The notes beneath the pieces were generated by a model, which had not been told where the DNA came from, did not search any database, and was given only the letters and a program-made list of their open reading frames with translations. A stretch of DNA of 36,203 nt from an uncultured bacterium (GTDB lineage Bacteria > Desulfobacterota > GWC2-55-46). Below, piece after piece: positions 2,763 through 36,203 of the stretch. How positions within the stretch are numbered: the first letter of the stretch is position 1; each line of letters begins with the position of its first letter. Location of the stretch: NCBI GenBank assembly GCA_905339405.1, contig CAJPGC010000049.1:1-36203 (forward strand), written 5' to 3'. The position numbers were made by a program, and so were the translations under genes.

Positions 2763-2990
2763 CGTTGTTGCGCGCTGCCGCGCAATCAGGCCCTTTGCCT
2801 AACTACCATGTAACGCGGCTTCCGCCGCTCTCTGTAACAGGGCTCTACGCGCTTTCCGCCTCTCCCACCAGCAAATCGCTCCCAGGCTTCCCCGTCGCGA
2901 TTCGCCCTTCCTCCCTTAGGCGTGCTCCGCATATTACGGCGCATGGGTTAGAGACAGTACAAAACAAATACTGCTTCTTTTTTGGAAAAA
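2763..2990. repeat. Large bipartite palindromic element, copy A (single-module form)
   Basis: It shares the left end TTGCGCGCTGCCGCGC and the whole first module with copies B (9549) and C (35820). The module includes the left arm GTAACAGGGC (2834-2843), inner stem GCAAATCGC (2871-2879) with GCGATTCGC (2897-2905), CTTAGGC and right arm GCATATTAC (2929-2937). A linker hairpin CAGTA/TACTG follows (2955-2973). The second, inverted module is missing. The outer arms no longer match: the left arm is of type B and the right arm resembles type C, so this copy looks chimeric or decayed. Confidence 0.8.
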
Positions 2991-3011: not shown

Positions 3012-3136
3012 TAAAATTGAAATTTTTTCCGAGTTCAAGGAAGGGCGGAAATGAAAAGCGCAGCATATATGATAATATGTGAGCATTTTCATTTCCGCCC
3101 TGACAAAGAAATCGGGAAAAAGGTCAATTTTTTAAA
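3012..3136. repeat. Long imperfect palindrome, copy 2, just after the metH stop
   Basis: Same architecture as 110-249: TTTTTTCCGAG, GGGCGGA, a central CATATATGATAATATG, TCCGCCCTGAC and CGGGAAAAA. The inner stem GGGCGGAAATGAAAA / TTTTCATTTCCGCCC is perfect over 15 bp. In copy 1 the same stem has a different sequence, including one two-sided (compensatory) change. It begins eight bases after the metH stop on the minus strand and could serve as a 3' RNA structure. Confidence 0.8.
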
Positions 3137-7062: not shown

Positions 7063-7441
7063 ATACCCCAATGACACGGCGATGACGGCAAAGCAGATAG
7101 GACTTTTGCAATAATCTGCTAAATCGCCTGAAAGCTCAGATTGAAACAAGCAGGTTGTTCAAAAAGTTCCAGATGCGAGGAGACGAGGAGAGAGACATGA
7201 GGCGTACTCTGTATGTACGCCGCAATGACGAACGACGATGACGACAAAGCAGATGGGGCTTTTGCAGGCAACCTGCTAACCTGAAAAATCGCTTAAAGCT
7301 CAGATATTGAAACAAGCAGGTTGTTCAAAAAGTTCCAGATGCGAGGAGACGAGGAGAGAGACATGAGGCGTACTCTGTTTGTACGCCGCAATGACGAACG
7401 ACGATGACGACAAAGCAGATGGGATTTTTTCAACAACCTGC
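7063..7441. repeat. Tandem array of inverted-repeat-ended elements (166-bp period)
   Basis: Two full units (7150-7276 and 7316-7441) begin GCAGGTTGTTCAAAAAGTTC and end with the near-complement (AGATGGG...AACCTGC), giving imperfect terminal inverted repeats of about 25 bp. A truncated right end of a third unit lies at about 7063-7118. Spacers share AAAGCTCAGAT and TTGAAACAA, so the repeat unit is 166 bp (element plus spacer). The last unit overlaps the uvrB stop codon. It resembles non-coding MITE-like elements that accumulate after genes; no transposase is nearby. Confidence 0.8.
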
Positions 7442-9438
7442 TAACCTATCTTAATTTCTTTTTCTTCCAGCTCCCTTATCCTATCTCGAAGCTCAGCCGC
7501 CCTTTCAAAGTCCATTTTCTTCGACGCCTTTTCCATCTCTTTCCTGAGCGATTTTATGAGGCCCGGCAGCTCGTGGGGAGGGATGTATCTCTCTTCTTTC
7601 TCCGCCGCCAGCGGCACCGTATAATAATCGCTTTCGTAGATGGAGCTGAGGACGTCCTTTATCCTGCTCTTTATCGTCTCCGGGGTTATGTTGTTCGCCC
7701 TGTTGTACTCAGCCTGTATCTTGCGCCTTCTTTCGGTCTCGTCCATGGCCGCCTTCATCGACTTCGTTATCGAGTCGGCGTACAGGATGACCCGTCCGTT
7801 CACGTTCCTGGCGGCCCTGCCGCAGGTCTGAATGAGCGAGCGCTCGGAGCGCAAAAAACCTTCCTTGTCGGCGTCCAGTATTGCCACCAGCGAGACCTCC
7901 GGTATGTCGAGCCCCTCGCGCAGCAGGTTTATTCCCACGAGCACGTCGAAGGAGCCCATGCGGAGCTCCTTTATTATCTCTACCCTCTCGAGCGTCTCGA
8001 CGTCCGAATGGAGGTACTTGACCTTTATCCCGAGCTCTGCGTAATGCTGAGTCAGGTCCTCGGCCATCCTCTTCGTCAGGGTCGTCACGAGCACCCTTTC
8101 GCCTTTTTTGACCCTCTTCCTTATCTCGGCGAGCAGGTCGTCGACCTGGGCAGCCGCGCCCCTCACCTCTATCTCGGGGTCCATGAGGCCCGTGGGCCTG
8201 ATTATCTGCTCGGCGACGTTCCTGCCGGAAAGCCTTCTTTCGTAATCGCCGGGGGTCGCTGAGACGTAGACGGCCTGCCCGGCCCTCCTCTCAAACTCCT
8301 CGAACTTCAAGGGCCTGTTGTCGACTGCCGAGGGCAGCCTGAAGCCGTACTCCACGAGGTTCTTCTTCCTCGACATGTCGCCGTGGTACATGGCCCCGAG
8401 CTGGGGGACGGTTATGTGGCTCTCGTCGAGGAAAAGGAGGTAGTCCGAAGGGAAGTAGTCAATGAGGGTATACGGCGGCTCGCCCGGGAGCCTTCCGGTA
8501 ATGTGGCGCGAATAGTTCTCGATGCCAGGGCAGTAGCCCATTTCCTGGAGCATCTCGATGTCGAAAAGGGTCCTCTGCTCGAGCCTCTGCGCCTCGAGGA
8601 GCTTCCTCCCGGCGTTGAACTCCTGGAGACGGCCCCTGAGCTCGTCCCTTACGGTCTCGATGGCGCGCGAGAGGTTCTCCTTCGTCGTGACGTAATGGCT
8701 CGCCGGGTGGATGAGAGCCTTTTCGGCCTTTCTAAGTGGCTTGCCGCGAAGCGGGTCTATCTCGGAGATCGACTCTATGATGTCCCCGAAGAACTCGAAC
8801 CTCAGGGCGGTTTCTGCCTCGTATACCGGGAAGACGTCGACTACGTCGCCCCTCACCCTGAAAGAGCCCCTGTGAAAGTCGTAGTCGTTCCTCTCGTACT
8901 GCATCTCGACGAGCTTTTTCAATATGGCGTTCCTGTCGGTCTCCATGCCCCGCTCGACATAGACGTGCATCGAGCCGTAGTCCTCGGGGGAGCCTATGCC
9001 GTATATGCATGAGACCGAAGCCACGATGATGACGTCCTTGCGCGTCAAAAGCGAATGGGTGGCCGAGTGGCGGAGCTTGTCTATCTCGTCGTTTATAGAG
9101 GCGTCCTTTTCAATGTAGGTGTCGGTGGTGGCGACGTAGGCCTCTGGCTGGTAGTAGTCGTAGTAGGAGACGAAGTACTCGACGGCGTTATCGGGAAAAA
9201 GGTCCCTGAACTCCGCGAAGAGCTGGGCCGCCAGGGTCTTGTTCGGGGCTATGACGAGGGCGGGCCTGCCGAGCTCCTCTATGACCTTGGCCATGGTGAA
9301 GGTCTTGCCCGAGCCTGTGACGCCGAGGAGCACCTGGTGCTTTTCCCCTGCCCTGATGCCCCCGGCCAAAGCCTTTATCGCAGCTGGCTGGTCGCCTTTG
9401 GGCACAAAATCGCTCTTTATCCTGAATGGACTCGTCAT
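7441..9438 (-). CDS. uvrB: Excinuclease ABC subunit B
   Basis: 665 residues, full length. The Walker A motif [12 protein letters not shown] (about 39-50) is followed by the beta-hairpin region with [20 protein letters not shown], the helicase motifs [11 protein letters not shown] and [10 protein letters not shown], and [18 protein letters not shown] with QTCGRAARN. The C-terminal UVR domain (about 625-662, [13 protein letters not shown]) contacts UvrC. The protein is loaded by UvrA, verifies DNA damage and recruits UvrC for dual incision. The ATG fits the family start, although no clear Shine-Dalgarno precedes it; TATAAA lies a few bases upstream. I looked for a LexA-type box and found none convincing. 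It is transcribed alone. Confidence 0.97.
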
Positions 9439-9526
9439 AACAGTTTATTTTATAACAAAAAAGGACGGGAGACTAATTGAAAATGTGGAACAGCCACACT
9501 GCTATTAAGTCGAGCTTCACCTGTAG

Positions 9527-9543
9527 GGTGGGCTGCGCCCACC
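9527..9543. repeat. Small perfect hairpin (GGTGGGC-TGC-GCCCACC)
   Basis: A 7-bp perfect stem with a 3-base loop, preceded by GTAG and followed by ATTAGG. It is similar to short dispersed hairpins seen in many genomes. It lies six bases before large element copy B. Another short stem, TGTGG/CCACA, sits at 9484-9498. Nothing else is recognisable in 9439-9548. Confidence 0.5.
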
Positions 9544-9548
9544 ATTAG

Positions 9549-9980
9549 GCGTTATTGCGCGCTGCCGCGCTTGAATTGCCTCACCGAAATACCGCGTAAC
9601 GCGGCTGCCGCCGCTCTCTGTAACAGGGCTCTGCGCGCTTTCCGCCTCCCCCACCCGCGAAACGCTTCCCCAAGGTCGCTTCGCTCCCAAGCTTCCTCAT
9701 CGCGTTTCGCCCTTCCTCTCTTAGGCGCGCTCCGCCCTGTTACGGTGTATGTGTTAAGGACAGAACATAACTTTATCTTTGTTTTGTCTTTAAACCATGC
9801 ACGGTTTACCCGGCGTAGCGAAGCCTAAGGGTGGGGGAAGGAGCGAGCAGGCGGGGAAGTAAGGATGCCCTCCGGAGGAGGACGAGGAAGTATAAGCGGG
9901 CCTGCTCGGAGGCAGGAGGCTGAAAGCGAGCGAGCCGGGTAAACAGAAGGCGCGCGGCAGCGCGTAAATGGCATTATTGC
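9549..9980. repeat. Large bipartite palindromic element, copy B (complete)
   Basis: Ends: GCGCGCTGCCGCGC on the left and GCGCGCGGCAGCGCG (9950-9964) on the right, in inverted orientation; GGCRTTATTGC occurs at both outer edges. Module 1 is closed by GTAACAGGGC (9620-9629) with GCCCTGTTAC (9734-9743), and inside it GCGAAACGC (9657-9665) with GCGTTTCGC (9702-9710). The linker has GACAGAACA (9759-9767) against TGTTTTGTC (9780-9788). Module 2 is closed by GTTTACCCGGC (9804-9814) with GCCGGGTAAAC (9934-9944), and inside it GAGCAGGC (9845-9852) with GCCTGCTC (9900-9907). Reverse-complemented, module 2 shares motifs and order with module 1. No credible protein is encoded. Confidence 0.85.
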
Positions 9981-10113
9981 AAAGGCCTATTTGTGCTGCA
10001 GTGCGCGAAGCGCAACCCCTTTTCCCCACAAATCTGTTTAATTTCCCGCCCCTTTGTGCTATTTTTATCATTTCGCAAATCATCCGCAATCGATGGCAAG
10101 GAGCCTGTTTCAA

Positions 10114-12924
10114 ATGGACTACAAGGACACTCTCAACCTGCCCAGGACAGACTTCCAGATGAAGGCCGAGCTCACCAAAAAAGAGCCCGAGACCTTGCAG
10201 CACTGGGAGGAAACGTGCCTTTATAAAAAACTCAAGGAGCTGGGCCAGGACAGGCCGAAGTACACTCTCCACGACGGCCCTCCTTACGCCAACGGCAACA
10301 TACACATAGGTCACGCCCTCAACAAGATACTGAAGGACATTGTCGTAAAGAGCCGCTTCATGTCCGGCTTCTCGACGGAGTACGTCCCGGGCTGGGACTG
10401 CCACGGCCTTCCAATAGAGCTACAGGTGGAAAAAGAGCTCGGCAAGCAAAAGAGCGAACTTTCAAAGAGCGAGATAAGAAAGCGCTGCAGGGCATACGCC
10501 TCGAAGTTCGTCGACATTCAGCGCGAGGACTTCAAACGCCTCGGCGTCTTCGGCGACTGGGCGGACCCGTACCTTACGATGAATTACGGCTACCAGGCTT
10601 CGATACTCCGCGAGCTCGGGAAGTTCGTCTCCGAAGGGCTCGTCTACAAAGGCAAAAAGCCCGTACACTGGTGCTCCTCGTGCATGACCGCCCTTGCCGA
10701 GGCCGAAGTCGAGTACGCTGACAAGACCTCTCCGTCCATCTACGTCAGGTTCGAGATAGACAAAAAAGAGCTCTCTTCAAGGCTCGGCGTCTCCATCCCC
10801 ACGGACAAGGCCTTTGTGGTCATCTGGACGACGACCCCCTGGACCATCCCGGCCAACATGGCCGTAGCGCTCCACCCTGAGCTCGATTACGTGCTGGTTG
10901 CCGCGAAGGGCTCCTCCTACGTCATCGCCGCCGGGCTTCTGGAAGAGGTCTCGAAAAAGCTCGGCTGGGAAGATGCCGAAGTAGTAAAGACCTTCCGCTA
11001 CAGCGATGTCGAAGGGATGAAGGCCCGCCACCCGTTCATAGACCGGGACTCGAGGATACTCCCCGGAGAGCACGTAACTCTCGAAGCCGGAACGGGCGCG
11101 GTCCACATCGCCCCGGGACACGGACAGGACGACTACGAGCTCGGGCTGAAGTTCGGCCTAGACATCTACAACCCCGTCGACAACGCCGGGAAGTTCATGC
11201 AGGTCGTCCCAGAGTTCGCGGGCACGCACGTATTCAAGGCCAACGAGGCTATAGTTGAGCTCTTGAGGTCCAACGGCTCGCTCCTCCTCAAGGAGGACAT
11301 AAGGCACTCGTACCCCCACTGCTGGAGGTGCAAATCCCCCATCATATTCAGGGCGACGGAGCAGTGGTTCGCCTCGATGGAAGCAGGCGGCCTCAGGAAA
11401 AAGGCTCTCGACGCCATAGAGAACAAGGTCAGATGGGTACCCGGCTGGGGCCGTGACCGCATATTCAACATGGTGCTTGGAAGGCCCGACTGGTGCCTCT
11501 CGAGGCAGAGGGTCTGGGGCGTGCCCATCCCCGCGTTGAAGTGCAAGGGATGCGGGGAATCGGTCCTCGACCCGAAGCTTATTGAAAAGCTCGCCGCCCT
11601 CGTCGAAAAGGACGGGGCTGACATATGGTTTGAAAAAGACGCGTCCGAATTCGCCACCCCCGGGATGAAATGTCCCAAGTGCTCGCAGGACGAGTTCGCG
11701 AAGGAAGAAGACATCCTAGACGTCTGGTTCGACTCTGGCGTGAGCTTTGCCGCCGTCGTCGAAAAAAGGGAGGGCTTGAAGTTCCCTGCGGATTTATACC
11801 TCGAGGGCAGCGACCAGCACAGGGGCTGGTTCCATTCATCTCTTCTGGCTTCCATAGGCACGCGCGGCGTGCCGCCTTACGACGCCGTCCTCACCCACGG
11901 CTTCGTGGTCGACGGCTCCGGAAGGAAGATGAGCAAGTCTCTCGGCAACGTCGTGGCCCCGCAGGAGGTCATCAACAAGTACGGGGCTGAGGTCCTTCGC
12001 CTTTGGGTCTCCGGCGAGGACTACCGCGAGGACATAAGGATATCGGAAGAGATATTAAAGAGGCTTTCGGAGGCCTACCGGAGGATAAGGAACACCTTCA
12101 GGTTCATACTCGGCAACCTCTACGACTTCGACCCCGAGAGGGATTCAGTAAGGTACGAGGAATTGGAAGAGCTCGACAGGCTCACCCTCCACAGGCTGAC
12201 GAGGCTGACGGAGAAGCTCACGAAAGCTTATGAGGAATTCGAGTTCCACGCCGTCTACCACTCGGTCCACAACTTCTGCACCGTCGACCTCTCGGCCTCG
12301 TACCTCGACATAATAAAGGACAGGCTCTACACCAACAGGGCCGATTCGAGGGCCAGGCGCGCAGCGCAGACGACGATGCACACTGTTCTCGACACGCTTT
12401 TGCGCCTTACGGCACCGGTCCTCGTCTTCACGACCGATGAGGCGTGGGCATACCTTCCCGGCAAAAAAGAAGAGAGCGTGCACATGGCCTCGATGCCCGT
12501 GCCGAAGCCTGAATGGATAGACACGTCTCTCGAGCAGAAGTGGGACTCCCTTGCCGCGTACAAGGGCGAGATATCAAAGGCGCTCGAGGGCAGCCGCCAG
12601 GGTAAGATAATAGGCCACCCGCTCGACGCGCAGGTTATGGTCTACGCGCCGGAGAAGGACAGGGAGATGCTCAAGGAAGAGGAGAAGGCGCTCGAAGAGG
12701 TGCTCATCATCTCAAGGCTCGTCGTCTCCGACGAACCGCTCGACTCATCGTCCGCAGGTCAAGGGGCTTTCTCTTTCACGTCCTCCGAGATAGAAGGTCT
12801 TTCGGTCGTCGTGAGCAAGGCCGAAGGCGGCAAGTGCGAGAGGTGCTGGCACTACAGCACCTTCGTCGGCAAAGACCATGAGCACCCAACCGTGTGCGAC
12901 AGGTGCGCGGAGGCGCTGAGATAA
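10114..12924 (+). CDS. ileS: Isoleucyl-tRNA synthetase
   Basis: 936 residues from the ATG at 10114 (AAGGAG ten bases upstream; the open frame extends to 10054, but those residues do not resemble the family). Starts MDYKDTLNLPRTDFQM as in bacterial IleRS. Class I signatures: DGPPYANGNIHIGHALNK (HIGH motif) and GRKMSKSLGNV (KMSKS). The editing (CP1) domain has VIWTTTPWTIPANMA and HIAPGHGQDDY. The anticodon-binding domain and a C-terminal zinc site (CERCWHYS and CDRC) complete it. It charges tRNA-Ile and edits misactivated valine. No T-box leader is visible upstream. lspA starts eight bases after its stop, so the two form an operon. Confidence 0.97.
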   Translation: MDYKDTLNLPRTDFQMKAELTKKEPETLQHWEETCLYKKLKELGQDRPKYTLHDGPPYANGNIHIGHALNKILKDIVVKSRFMSGFSTEYVPGWDCHGLPIELQVEKELGKQKSELSKSEIRKRCRAYASKFVDIQREDFKRLGVFGDWADPYLTMNYGYQASILRELGKFVSEGLVYKGKKPVHWCSSCMTALAEAEVEYADKTSPSIYVRFEIDKKELSSRLGVSIPTDKAFVVIWTTTPWTIPANMAVALHPELDYVLVAAKGSSYVIAAGLLEEVSKKLGWEDAEVVKTFRYSDVEGMKARHPFIDRDSRILPGEHVTLEAGTGAVHIAPGHGQDDYELGLKFGLDIYNPVDNAGKFMQVVPEFAGTHVFKANEAIVELLRSNGSLLLKEDIRHSYPHCWRCKSPIIFRATEQWFASMEAGGLRKKALDAIENKVRWVPGWGRDRIFNMVLGRPDWCLSRQRVWGVPIPALKCKGCGESVLDPKLIEKLAALVEKDGADIWFEKDASEFATPGMKCPKCSQDEFAKEEDILDVWFDSGVSFAAVVEKREGLKFPADLYLEGSDQHRGWFHSSLLASIGTRGVPPYDAVLTHGFVVDGSGRKMSKSLGNVVAPQEVINKYGAEVLRLWVSGEDYREDIRISEEILKRLSEAYRRIRNTFRFILGNLYDFDPERDSVRYEELEELDRLTLHRLTRLTEKLTKAYEEFEFHAVYHSVHNFCTVDLSASYLDIIKDRLYTNRADSRARRAAQTTMHTVLDTLLRLTAPVLVFTTDEAWAYLPGKKEESVHMASMPVPKPEWIDTSLEQKWDSLAAYKGEISKALEGSRQGKIIGHPLDAQVMVYAPEKDREMLKEEEKALEEVLIISRLVVSDEPLDSSSAGQGAFSFTSSEIEGLSVVVSKAEGGKCERCWHYSTFVGKDHEHPTVCDRCAEALR

Positions 12925-25871: not shown

Positions 25872-25909
25872 TTCTAAATTCTATCCACACTATGGGGAGG
25901 GGAAGAACA

Positions 25910-27043
25910 ATGAAGAATTTGAAACTTAAACAGCACTTGATGTTAGCAATGTCTCTCGTTTTTGTCTTCGCGCCTGAAGGAATAGCCTGTGTAGACCCAA
26001 GCTGGTCTTCCATAACAACCACAGGCGCACCTTCCGGAAGGTATAGACACAGTGCAATCTGGACAGGGGACAAAATGCTGATATGGGGTGGGGAAGATGC
26101 CAATAGTAGCCTCAATTCAGGGGGATCGTATAATCCTGCTACTAACTCATGGTCTTCGATAACAACTTCAAGCGCACCTTCCGCAAGGAGTCGGCACTCT
26201 GCTGTTTGGACAGGGAGCAAAATGATAATCTGGGGTGGTGCGGGGAACAACACATACAATACAGGGGCTGCATACAATCCTGCTACTAACTCCTGGACGT
26301 CTACAAATACAGTGAACGCACCATCAGCAAGGCTCGATCACTCAGCAATTTGGACAGGCAGCAAAATGATAGTTTGGGGTGGGTGGGATACTTATTCCGT
26401 TTACAATACAGGTGCTGTATACGACCCAGCAACCGACTCATGGACGACCATGAGTACATCGAATGCTCCATCTGCGAGGACAAGTCATACCGCAGTCTGG
26501 ACAGGATCCAAAATGATAATCTGGGGTGGATTCAATGGTTCCACTGTCAATACAGGAGGAGCTGCATACGATCCGGCAACAGATACATGGACTTCAATTT
26601 CAACCACGAATGCGCCAGATTACAGGGCATGGCACAACGTTGTCTGGACAGGATCGAAAATGCTTGTATGGGGTGGTTTTGATGGCTCAGATTATATCAA
26701 TACTGGAGGAGCATATGACCCTGCAACAGACGCATGGACGTCCATTACTACAACTGACGCACCTCCGGCTACACAGGGGGGGAATAGCACAGCAGTCTGG
26801 ACAGGGGACAAAATGCTGATCTGGGGCGGCGGCGGTTACGATGGTGTTAATTACAATTACTTCAATACAGGTGGAGCATACAATCCTGCCACTGATACAT
26901 GGGTGGATACCATAGCTACAGATGCACCATCTGCAAGGCTCGCACACAGCGCTGTCTGGGCGGAGGATAAGATGATTATATGGGGCGGTGAAGGAGATGG
27001 CCCGACCAATCTCAATTCTGGAAGTATTTTATACGGGTATTAA
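25910..27043 (+). CDS. Secreted Kelch-type beta-propeller protein
   Basis: 377 residues from the ATG at 25910 (GGGGAGGGG just upstream; the frame is open 18 bases earlier). A signal-peptide-like N-terminus (LMLAMSLVFVFAPEGIAC) is followed by seven tandem repeats of about 47-55 residues covering the whole mature protein. Each has the pattern SWTSI-TT-NAPSAR--HSAVW, then TGSKMIIWGG and NTGGAYDPATD; this is the Kelch motif with its Gly-Gly pair, and seven copies suggest one closed propeller. No other domain or anchor is present. It probably binds a ligand or carbohydrate outside the cytoplasm. The DNA is visibly more A/T-rich and its codon use differs from the neighbours, suggesting transfer. 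A terminator follows. Confidence 0.85.
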   Translation: MKNLKLKQHLMLAMSLVFVFAPEGIACVDPSWSSITTTGAPSGRYRHSAIWTGDKMLIWGGEDANSSLNSGGSYNPATNSWSSITTSSAPSARSRHSAVWTGSKMIIWGGAGNNTYNTGAAYNPATNSWTSTNTVNAPSARLDHSAIWTGSKMIVWGGWDTYSVYNTGAVYDPATDSWTTMSTSNAPSARTSHTAVWTGSKMIIWGGFNGSTVNTGGAAYDPATDTWTSISTTNAPDYRAWHNVVWTGSKMLVWGGFDGSDYINTGGAYDPATDAWTSITTTDAPPATQGGNSTAVWTGDKMLIWGGGGYDGVNYNYFNTGGAYNPATDTWVDTIATDAPSARLAHSAVWAEDKMIIWGGEGDGPTNLNSGSILYGY

Positions 27044-35819: not shown

Positions 35820-36203
35820 TTGCGCGCTGCCGCGCTTGAATACTCTTTTCAAAAATACCATGTAACGCGGCTGCCGCCGCTCTCTGTAACATGCTCTGCG
35901 CGCTTTCAGCCTCCCCCACCCGCGAAACGCTTCCCCAAGGTCGCTTCGCTCCCATGCTTCCCCGTCGCGTTTCGCCCTTCCTCCGCGAGAAGCGCTCCGC
36001 ATGTTACGGTGTATGGGTTTAAAAACAATACAAAAACTAATTCTTTTTTGTTGTTTTGTTTTAACCATGCACGGTTTACCCGGCGTAGCGAAGCCTAAGG
36101 TTGGGGGAGGGGGCGAGCAGGCGAGGAAGCAGGGATGCCCTCCGAAGGAGGGCGAGGCTGTATAAGCGGGCCTGCTCGGAGGCAGGAGGCTGAAAGCGAG
36201 CGA
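35820..36203. repeat. Large bipartite palindromic element, copy C (cut by the window end)
   Basis: Module 1 is closed by GTAACATGC (35886-35894) with GCATGTTAC (35999-36007), a different but again complementary pair compared with copy B. The inner stem GCGAAACGC (35922-35930) with GCGTTTCGC (35967-35975) is the same. The A/T-rich linker contains complementary A-rich and T-rich halves. Module 2 begins with GTTTACCCGGC (36074-36084) and has a perfect GCCCTCC-GAA-GGAGGGC hairpin; its closing arm lies beyond 36203. Confidence 0.83.

Follow-up and report, generated by a model that had tools for sequence, protein, structure and literature searches.

A dispersed intergenic element of covarying, tail-to-tail folding units in uncultured Desulfobacterota

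The intergenic region between the divergently transcribed genes uvrB (7441–9438, minus strand) and ileS (10093–12924, plus strand) holds two folding units joined tail to tail, whose stems covary overwhelmingly among copies dispersed through this genome and related genera. We read this structure as a non-autonomous, dispersed DNA element that depends on its fold, with a probability of roughly 0.65. In shape and dispersal it is best described as REPIN- or MITE-like, and we claim membership in neither group. The analysed window is a whole contig of 36,203 nucleotides (G000:C49), part of a 2.65-Mb genome assembled in 60 contigs and 95% complete.

Architecture of the element

The region at 9549–9980 had been taken in an earlier, sequence-only reading as one fold. 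It consists instead of two inverted units, unit A (plus strand, 9549 to ~9775) and a diverged sister, unit B (minus strand, ~9775 to 9973), because a covariance model derived from unit A finds a minus-strand match in the second half (Table 1). The model was built from A-type units and a few sister units from another genus. Unit B repeats the architecture of unit A in other letters, with GTTTACCCGGC/GCCGGGTAAAC as its closing stem. Solo units measure ~200 bp and composites of two sister units ~430 bp. The 432-nucleotide sequence folds with z = −6.9, and none of 100 shuffles folded equally well. The outer ends contain the palindrome GCAAAAGGCCTTTTGC. The pair GGCGTTATTGC (9548–9558) and GGCATTATTGC (9970–9980), considered as a target duplication, is better read as the ends of the element.

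Table 1 Features of the element and its copies in the window
Feature	Positions	Strand	Basis
Composite, A and B tail to tail, matching end hairpin at both outer ends	9548–9980		
Outer end hairpin, A side, GCGCGCTGCCGCGC; family outer-end consensus GCAAAAGGCCTTTT(AA)CGCGCTGCCGCGC	9557–9570	+	
Unit A linker, differs among copies	9571–9600	+	Alignment of 43 copies
Unit A second end hairpin, GCGGCTGCCGCCGC (model helix 1)	9601–9614	+	
Unit A closing stem P1, 5′ arm, GTAACAGGGC	9620–9629	+	
Internal loop, conserved unpaired C-rich strand, CCTCCCCCACCC	9645–9656	+	
Unit A stem P3, 5′ arm	9656–9665	+	
Hairpin P4, GGTCGCTTCGCTCC	9674–9687	+	
Unit A stem P3, 3′ arm	9702–9709	+	
Internal loop, conserved unpaired strand, CTTCCTCTCTTAGGC; family consensus CTTCCTCCCTTAGGC	9712–9726	+	
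Unit A closing stem P1, 3′ arm, GCCCTGTTAC	9734–9743	+	
Junction of both A/T-rich tails, TTAAGGACAGAACA...TTTGTTTTGTCTTTAA, an inverted repeat in its own right	9754–9793		
Unit B, diverged sister; closing stem 9804–9814/9934–9944, end hairpin 9950–9964	9795–9973	−	Covariance-model match, E 3.5e-7 in 304 kb
Solo unit A, partly decayed (broken closing stem, shorter loop)	2770–2990	+	Model match 2805–2946
Composite copy, cut by the contig end	35822–36203		A model match 35857–36016; B from ~36040

Units from three genera, folded separately, gave a single architecture of end hairpin, P1, short P2, internal loop, long P3 and P4. The large internal loop carries the conserved strands CCTCCCCCACCC and CTTCCTCCCTTAGGC across genera, and P4 reads GTCGCTTCGCTCC in two of the three. 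On this common architecture each genus has its own consensus: P1 is GTAACAGGGC, GGCGATGGC or GAGGGTAAGGC depending on the genus, and other genera have different sequence in place of the GTAAC/GTTAC boxes. Integron attC sites have conserved R boxes (RYYYAAC/GTTRRRY) and accompany gene cassettes; weighed by this description, an attC identity is argued against by the replacement of the boxes.

The architecture also accepts additions. A structured domain of ~120 bp is inserted in P3 at one fixed point, between GTGAAC and AACGGGCCCC, in at least nine A units of the complete genome G008 (for example, L200–L208) and in one from the record of isolate H5_GWC (L147). Its own hairpin covaries (GGAG/CTCC versus GAAG/CTTC), and the domain represents modular growth of the element. 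The end hairpin is not an independent mini-repeat, as all 17 of its occurrences in 126 kb of own-genome sequence adjoin a unit.

The copies noted earlier at 2763, 9549 and 35820 (copies A, B and C) are positioned exactly, and they are three places among the ~60 units of the genome. Their shared folding holds for two: the copies at 9549 and 35820 do have the stems, whereas the closing stem of copy A is broken, its arms GTAACAGGGC (2834–2843) and GCATATTAC (2929–2937) having three mismatches. The reported change in both closing-stem arms between copies B and C is a true two-sided change, since the arms of copy B (Table 1) and those of copy C (GTAACATGC, 35886–35894, and GCATGTTAC, 35999–36007) each pair perfectly. 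The inner stem of copy A (GCAAATCGC, 2871–2879, and GCGATTCGC, 2897–2905) does contain the paired T–A swap described for it, together with one A·C mismatch, and the loop of this copy is shortened by ~19 bp.

Covariation and the level at which pairing is kept

In a plain MAFFT alignment of 47 sequences, 24 of 37 pairs changed on both sides. Two-sided cells numbered 298, compared with 109 ± 10 after shuffling and 27–91 when partners were slid, and the covariation score was 0.366 as against 0.133 in shuffles. We consider this the cleaner test because the model-search alignment is fitted to the model. Parsimony on a tree of 136 units gave 82 independent double changes from one Watson–Crick pair to another, a figure that is an estimate because tree and pairs were drawn from the same data; sliding the partners by one to three columns left 4–10. 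Thus, across many copies, the stems covary, which supports the proposal that the fold is itself important, whether in RNA or as a hairpin of DNA.

Covariation alone is no proof of a selected function, because template switching can create and maintain hairpins and so yield compensatory changes in DNA inverted repeats (PMC8794818). Part of the covariation may have been made in this way. A mainly mutational account, in which template switching between arms and gene conversion among copies produce most two-sided changes and the fold is unselected, seems to us doubtful but deserves weight. Beyond the documented behavior of hairpins, it would fit the finding that nearly all changes run from Watson–Crick to Watson–Crick pairs with few G·U intermediates, and that stem variants recombine among copies, copy A of the window combining one new arm with one old. 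Template switching alone does not explain the amplification of the element, however, and the unpaired loop strands are conserved across genera. The constancy of the architecture after complete renewal of its stems likewise suggests a constraint on the whole shape.

A selected RNA strand would be expected to contain more G·U than A·C cells. We counted 125 G·U and 138 A·C cells among 3,823 Watson–Crick cells, with G·U making up ~3% of pairs; among tRNA stems, intended as a positive control for these counts, just three tRNAs were usable. The own genome contributed 51 G·U and 54 A·C cells, and the remaining groups 39/28, 24/17 and 10/36. Because the two kinds of cell are equally common, neither strand behaves as RNA, and the DNA alternative is better supported. 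Pairing looks to be kept at the DNA level, via selection on single-stranded hairpins or template switching.

These counts bear on the reading of the element as a structured non-coding RNA transcribed from its many copies, whether regulatory or spread in SINE-like fashion through reverse transcription, with selection on the RNA fold. The multi-helix architecture, the conserved loop strands, the optional P3 domain and the strong folding all resemble structured RNA. Nevertheless, we consider this account improbable. Besides the G·U deficit relative to that expectation, the copies number ~60 and have no direction relative to genes, and sister units lie on opposite strands and point in opposite directions. 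RVT_1 (PF00078) matched nothing in three copy-rich genomes (the own genome, G008 and G012), which also argues against a reverse transcriptase as mover and against placing the element among retroelements of the SINE type. Rfam 15 returned no match for the element at either gathering or permissive thresholds, in keeping with the earlier failure to place it in a known family, and no match to a known insertion sequence emerged. The sole Rfam match was a cobalamin riboswitch (110 bits; L110, 1–190, minus strand) near a composite in G024.

Spread, placement and inversion

Nucleotide searches found ~50 matching pieces in the own genome. The covariance model R1 (161 positions, 37 pairs) identified 60 units there, 53 in G008, 78 in G012, 45 in G004, 44 in G016 and 37 in G017, and seven other genera of this family also have many. 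Genera with the element include g1, g2, g3, g6, g10, g12 and g13. The same model found none in five other genera of the family (g4, g5, g7, g8 and g11) and none in 33 genomes of the order or class that belong to different families. All named records with the motif are uncultured ‘Deltaproteobacteria’ bins, several from groundwater. Phage and plasmid collections contained no match, so we rejected carriage by either. Solo A units predominate in the own genome; genera g6 and g10 often have composites. G008 contains about twenty pairs whose members are no more than a few hundred bases apart, and each of these pairs is arranged tail to tail.

None of 38 own-genome copies overlaps a predicted gene, and of the 37 with a gene on each side, 21 sit between tandem, 13 between convergent and 3 between divergent genes, counts that rest on our own simple gene finder. 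Between tandem genes the two orientations are balanced (11 versus 10), and the flanking genes are diverse housekeeping genes; we therefore rejected cis-regulation of particular genes. A more general host role between genes, such as insulating or terminating transcription or binding a chromosome-organising protein, could draw on this strictly intergenic placement, on the palindrome in the outer ends and on the T runs that follow the end hairpins in other genera, but it is very improbable: own-genome copies mostly lack a T run, terminator-like sites near the window copy are no more numerous than in shuffles, and orthologous sites frequently lack a copy, as do several whole genera of the family.

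Related genomes differ at orthologous sites. Congener G002 lacks the element at the orthologs of 2763 and 9549, G008 and G012 lack it at the ortholog of 9549, and G001 has a solo unit there in the opposite direction. On contig C44 there are two more sites at which G001 has no copy. Orthologous intergenic regions change too fast to yield exact empty sites, and because the species with empty sites are too diverged to give the exact insertion point, we infer movement from spread and turnover. Among 38 composites, target duplications of 3–8 bp showed no excess over shuffled partners, although an ancient duplication could have been lost because the ends are old and diverged. Exchange between old copies, through recombination and gene conversion, may account for part of its spread too.

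Within genus g6, whose compared stretches are 82–96% identical, the composite is inverted at two orthologous sites with collinear flanks (G008 versus G017 at site one; G008 versus G027 and G025 at site two). Because the right-hand flank of site one starts at the same position in G008, G017 and G027, inversion of a resident copy in place is the simplest reading. It probably runs between the matching end hairpins. We tentatively entertain a further, rather unlikely possibility, a new class of invertible mobile DNA that depends on its fold: multi-helix sister units locked tail to tail would be moved by an enzyme recognising the shape of the folded arms instead of their sequence, and could turn around in place in the chromosome.

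The sequence-only reading saw no transposase nearby, and in the loci that we read none adjoined the element or was flanked by its ends. The search for a REP-type (Y1) transposase that it proposed gave no match to Y1_Tnp (PF01797) in the own genome, 95% complete, a model against which diverged RAYTs score low. Congeners G001 and G002 each have a RAYT-like gene, flanked by a GTAG-tagged GGTGGGC/GCCCACC REP, and these loci contain no motif of the element. We therefore rejected Y1/RAYT as mover. Because this REP lies on both sides of the RAYT-like gene in two congeners, the genus has a genuine RAYT–REP system, distinct from the element. The tagged REP GTAGGGTGGGCTGCGCCCACC, present at those RAYT loci (L192 and L190), also directly adjoins the element in the window; this copy, GTAGGGTGGGC..GCCCACC at 9523–9543, is a separate repeat.

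Under our preferred reading of a fold-dependent, non-autonomous DNA element, an enzyme acting in trans would recognise the ends or arms once folded as single strands, in the manner proposed for RAYT and REPs, and would copy the unit into new intergenic places. Propagation limited to copies able to fold, with template-switch repair of imperfect hairpins as an aid, would keep the stems perfect. A resident element would be flipped when its matching end hairpins recombine or when replication errs between them.

Comparison with known repeats

REPINs and REP-BIMEs, with their RAYTs, are likewise dispersed intergenic units of two inverted folding modules, forming lineage-specific, non-autonomous families for which movement in the form of folded single-stranded DNA is proposed (PMC3116915, PMC2817692, PMC3733652). 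The tail-to-tail A and B units correspond to the two inverted modules, yet solo A units are common in the own genome. A REPIN arm is a hairpin of 20–40 bp, whereas the arm of the element is a multi-helix unit of ~200 bp. In place of a GTAG/CGTC tag beside a palindrome, the element ends read as the outer-end consensus in Table 1, and no RAYT gene flanked by the same repeat was found: the own genome has no PF01797 match, and the genes in G001 and G002 are flanked by another REP.

MITEs and other small repeats (Correia/NEMIS, ERIC, RU-1/2/3 and RUP) are also short and non-coding and occur in dozens of intergenic copies (PMC2229807). As for the terminal inverted repeats of a MITE derived from a DDE transposon, composites of the element have matching end hairpins and its solo units do not. 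The element differs from these repeats in that no target-site duplication was found and in its far more elaborate internal pairing. We know of no full-length transposon that matches it. The bcr repeats are dispersed, folding chromosomal sequences of 100–200 bp that are restricted to a group of bacteria, and the element resembles them in being dispersed, group-restricted and folding. Unlike the element, bcr1 is not known to form tail-to-tail sister pairs or to invert in place. It is among the repeats listed for the Bacillus cereus group (PMC6542083). No description of the element itself was found in the open-licence papers searched.

The general kind, small non-autonomous intergenic repeats, is known; what is unusual is to find large sister units of several helices, strictly paired tail to tail, together with renewal of stems in each genus and in-place inversion. 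Few dispersed repeats join such covariation and genus-wise stem renewal to an absence of strand bias, and the element adds a new case to the small genomic repeats in which DNA folding seems to matter. It offers a natural test bed for separating selection on folded DNA from template switching as the source of compensatory hairpin change, and the flipping of this ~430-bp element at orthologous sites can be measured in populations. It also carries a warning that covariation alone is no proof of structured RNA, as a covariation screen would probably call it a new non-coding RNA.

Other repeats share these intergenic regions, which are mosaics of several families (CCCTCTCCCCTTGTGGGAGAGGG; GATTCTTCGCTTCGCTCAGAATGAC; REPs) that often adjoin the tail of the element and flank many copies (for example, L084, L096 and L099, and 2735–2755 in the window). 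One repeat of ~120 bp with a central palindrome (126–241 and 3019–3134) has dozens of copies at 85–94% identity in several genera of the family; it is perhaps recently active or constrained, because its conservation between genera is far above that of the element. A tandem pair of ~127-bp repeats, 97% identical, lies near the 3′ end of uvrB (7140–7266 and 7306–7432) and has many congener copies. Finally, a Kelch-repeat beta-propeller protein is encoded at 25892–27043, with internal DNA repeats of ~147 bp.
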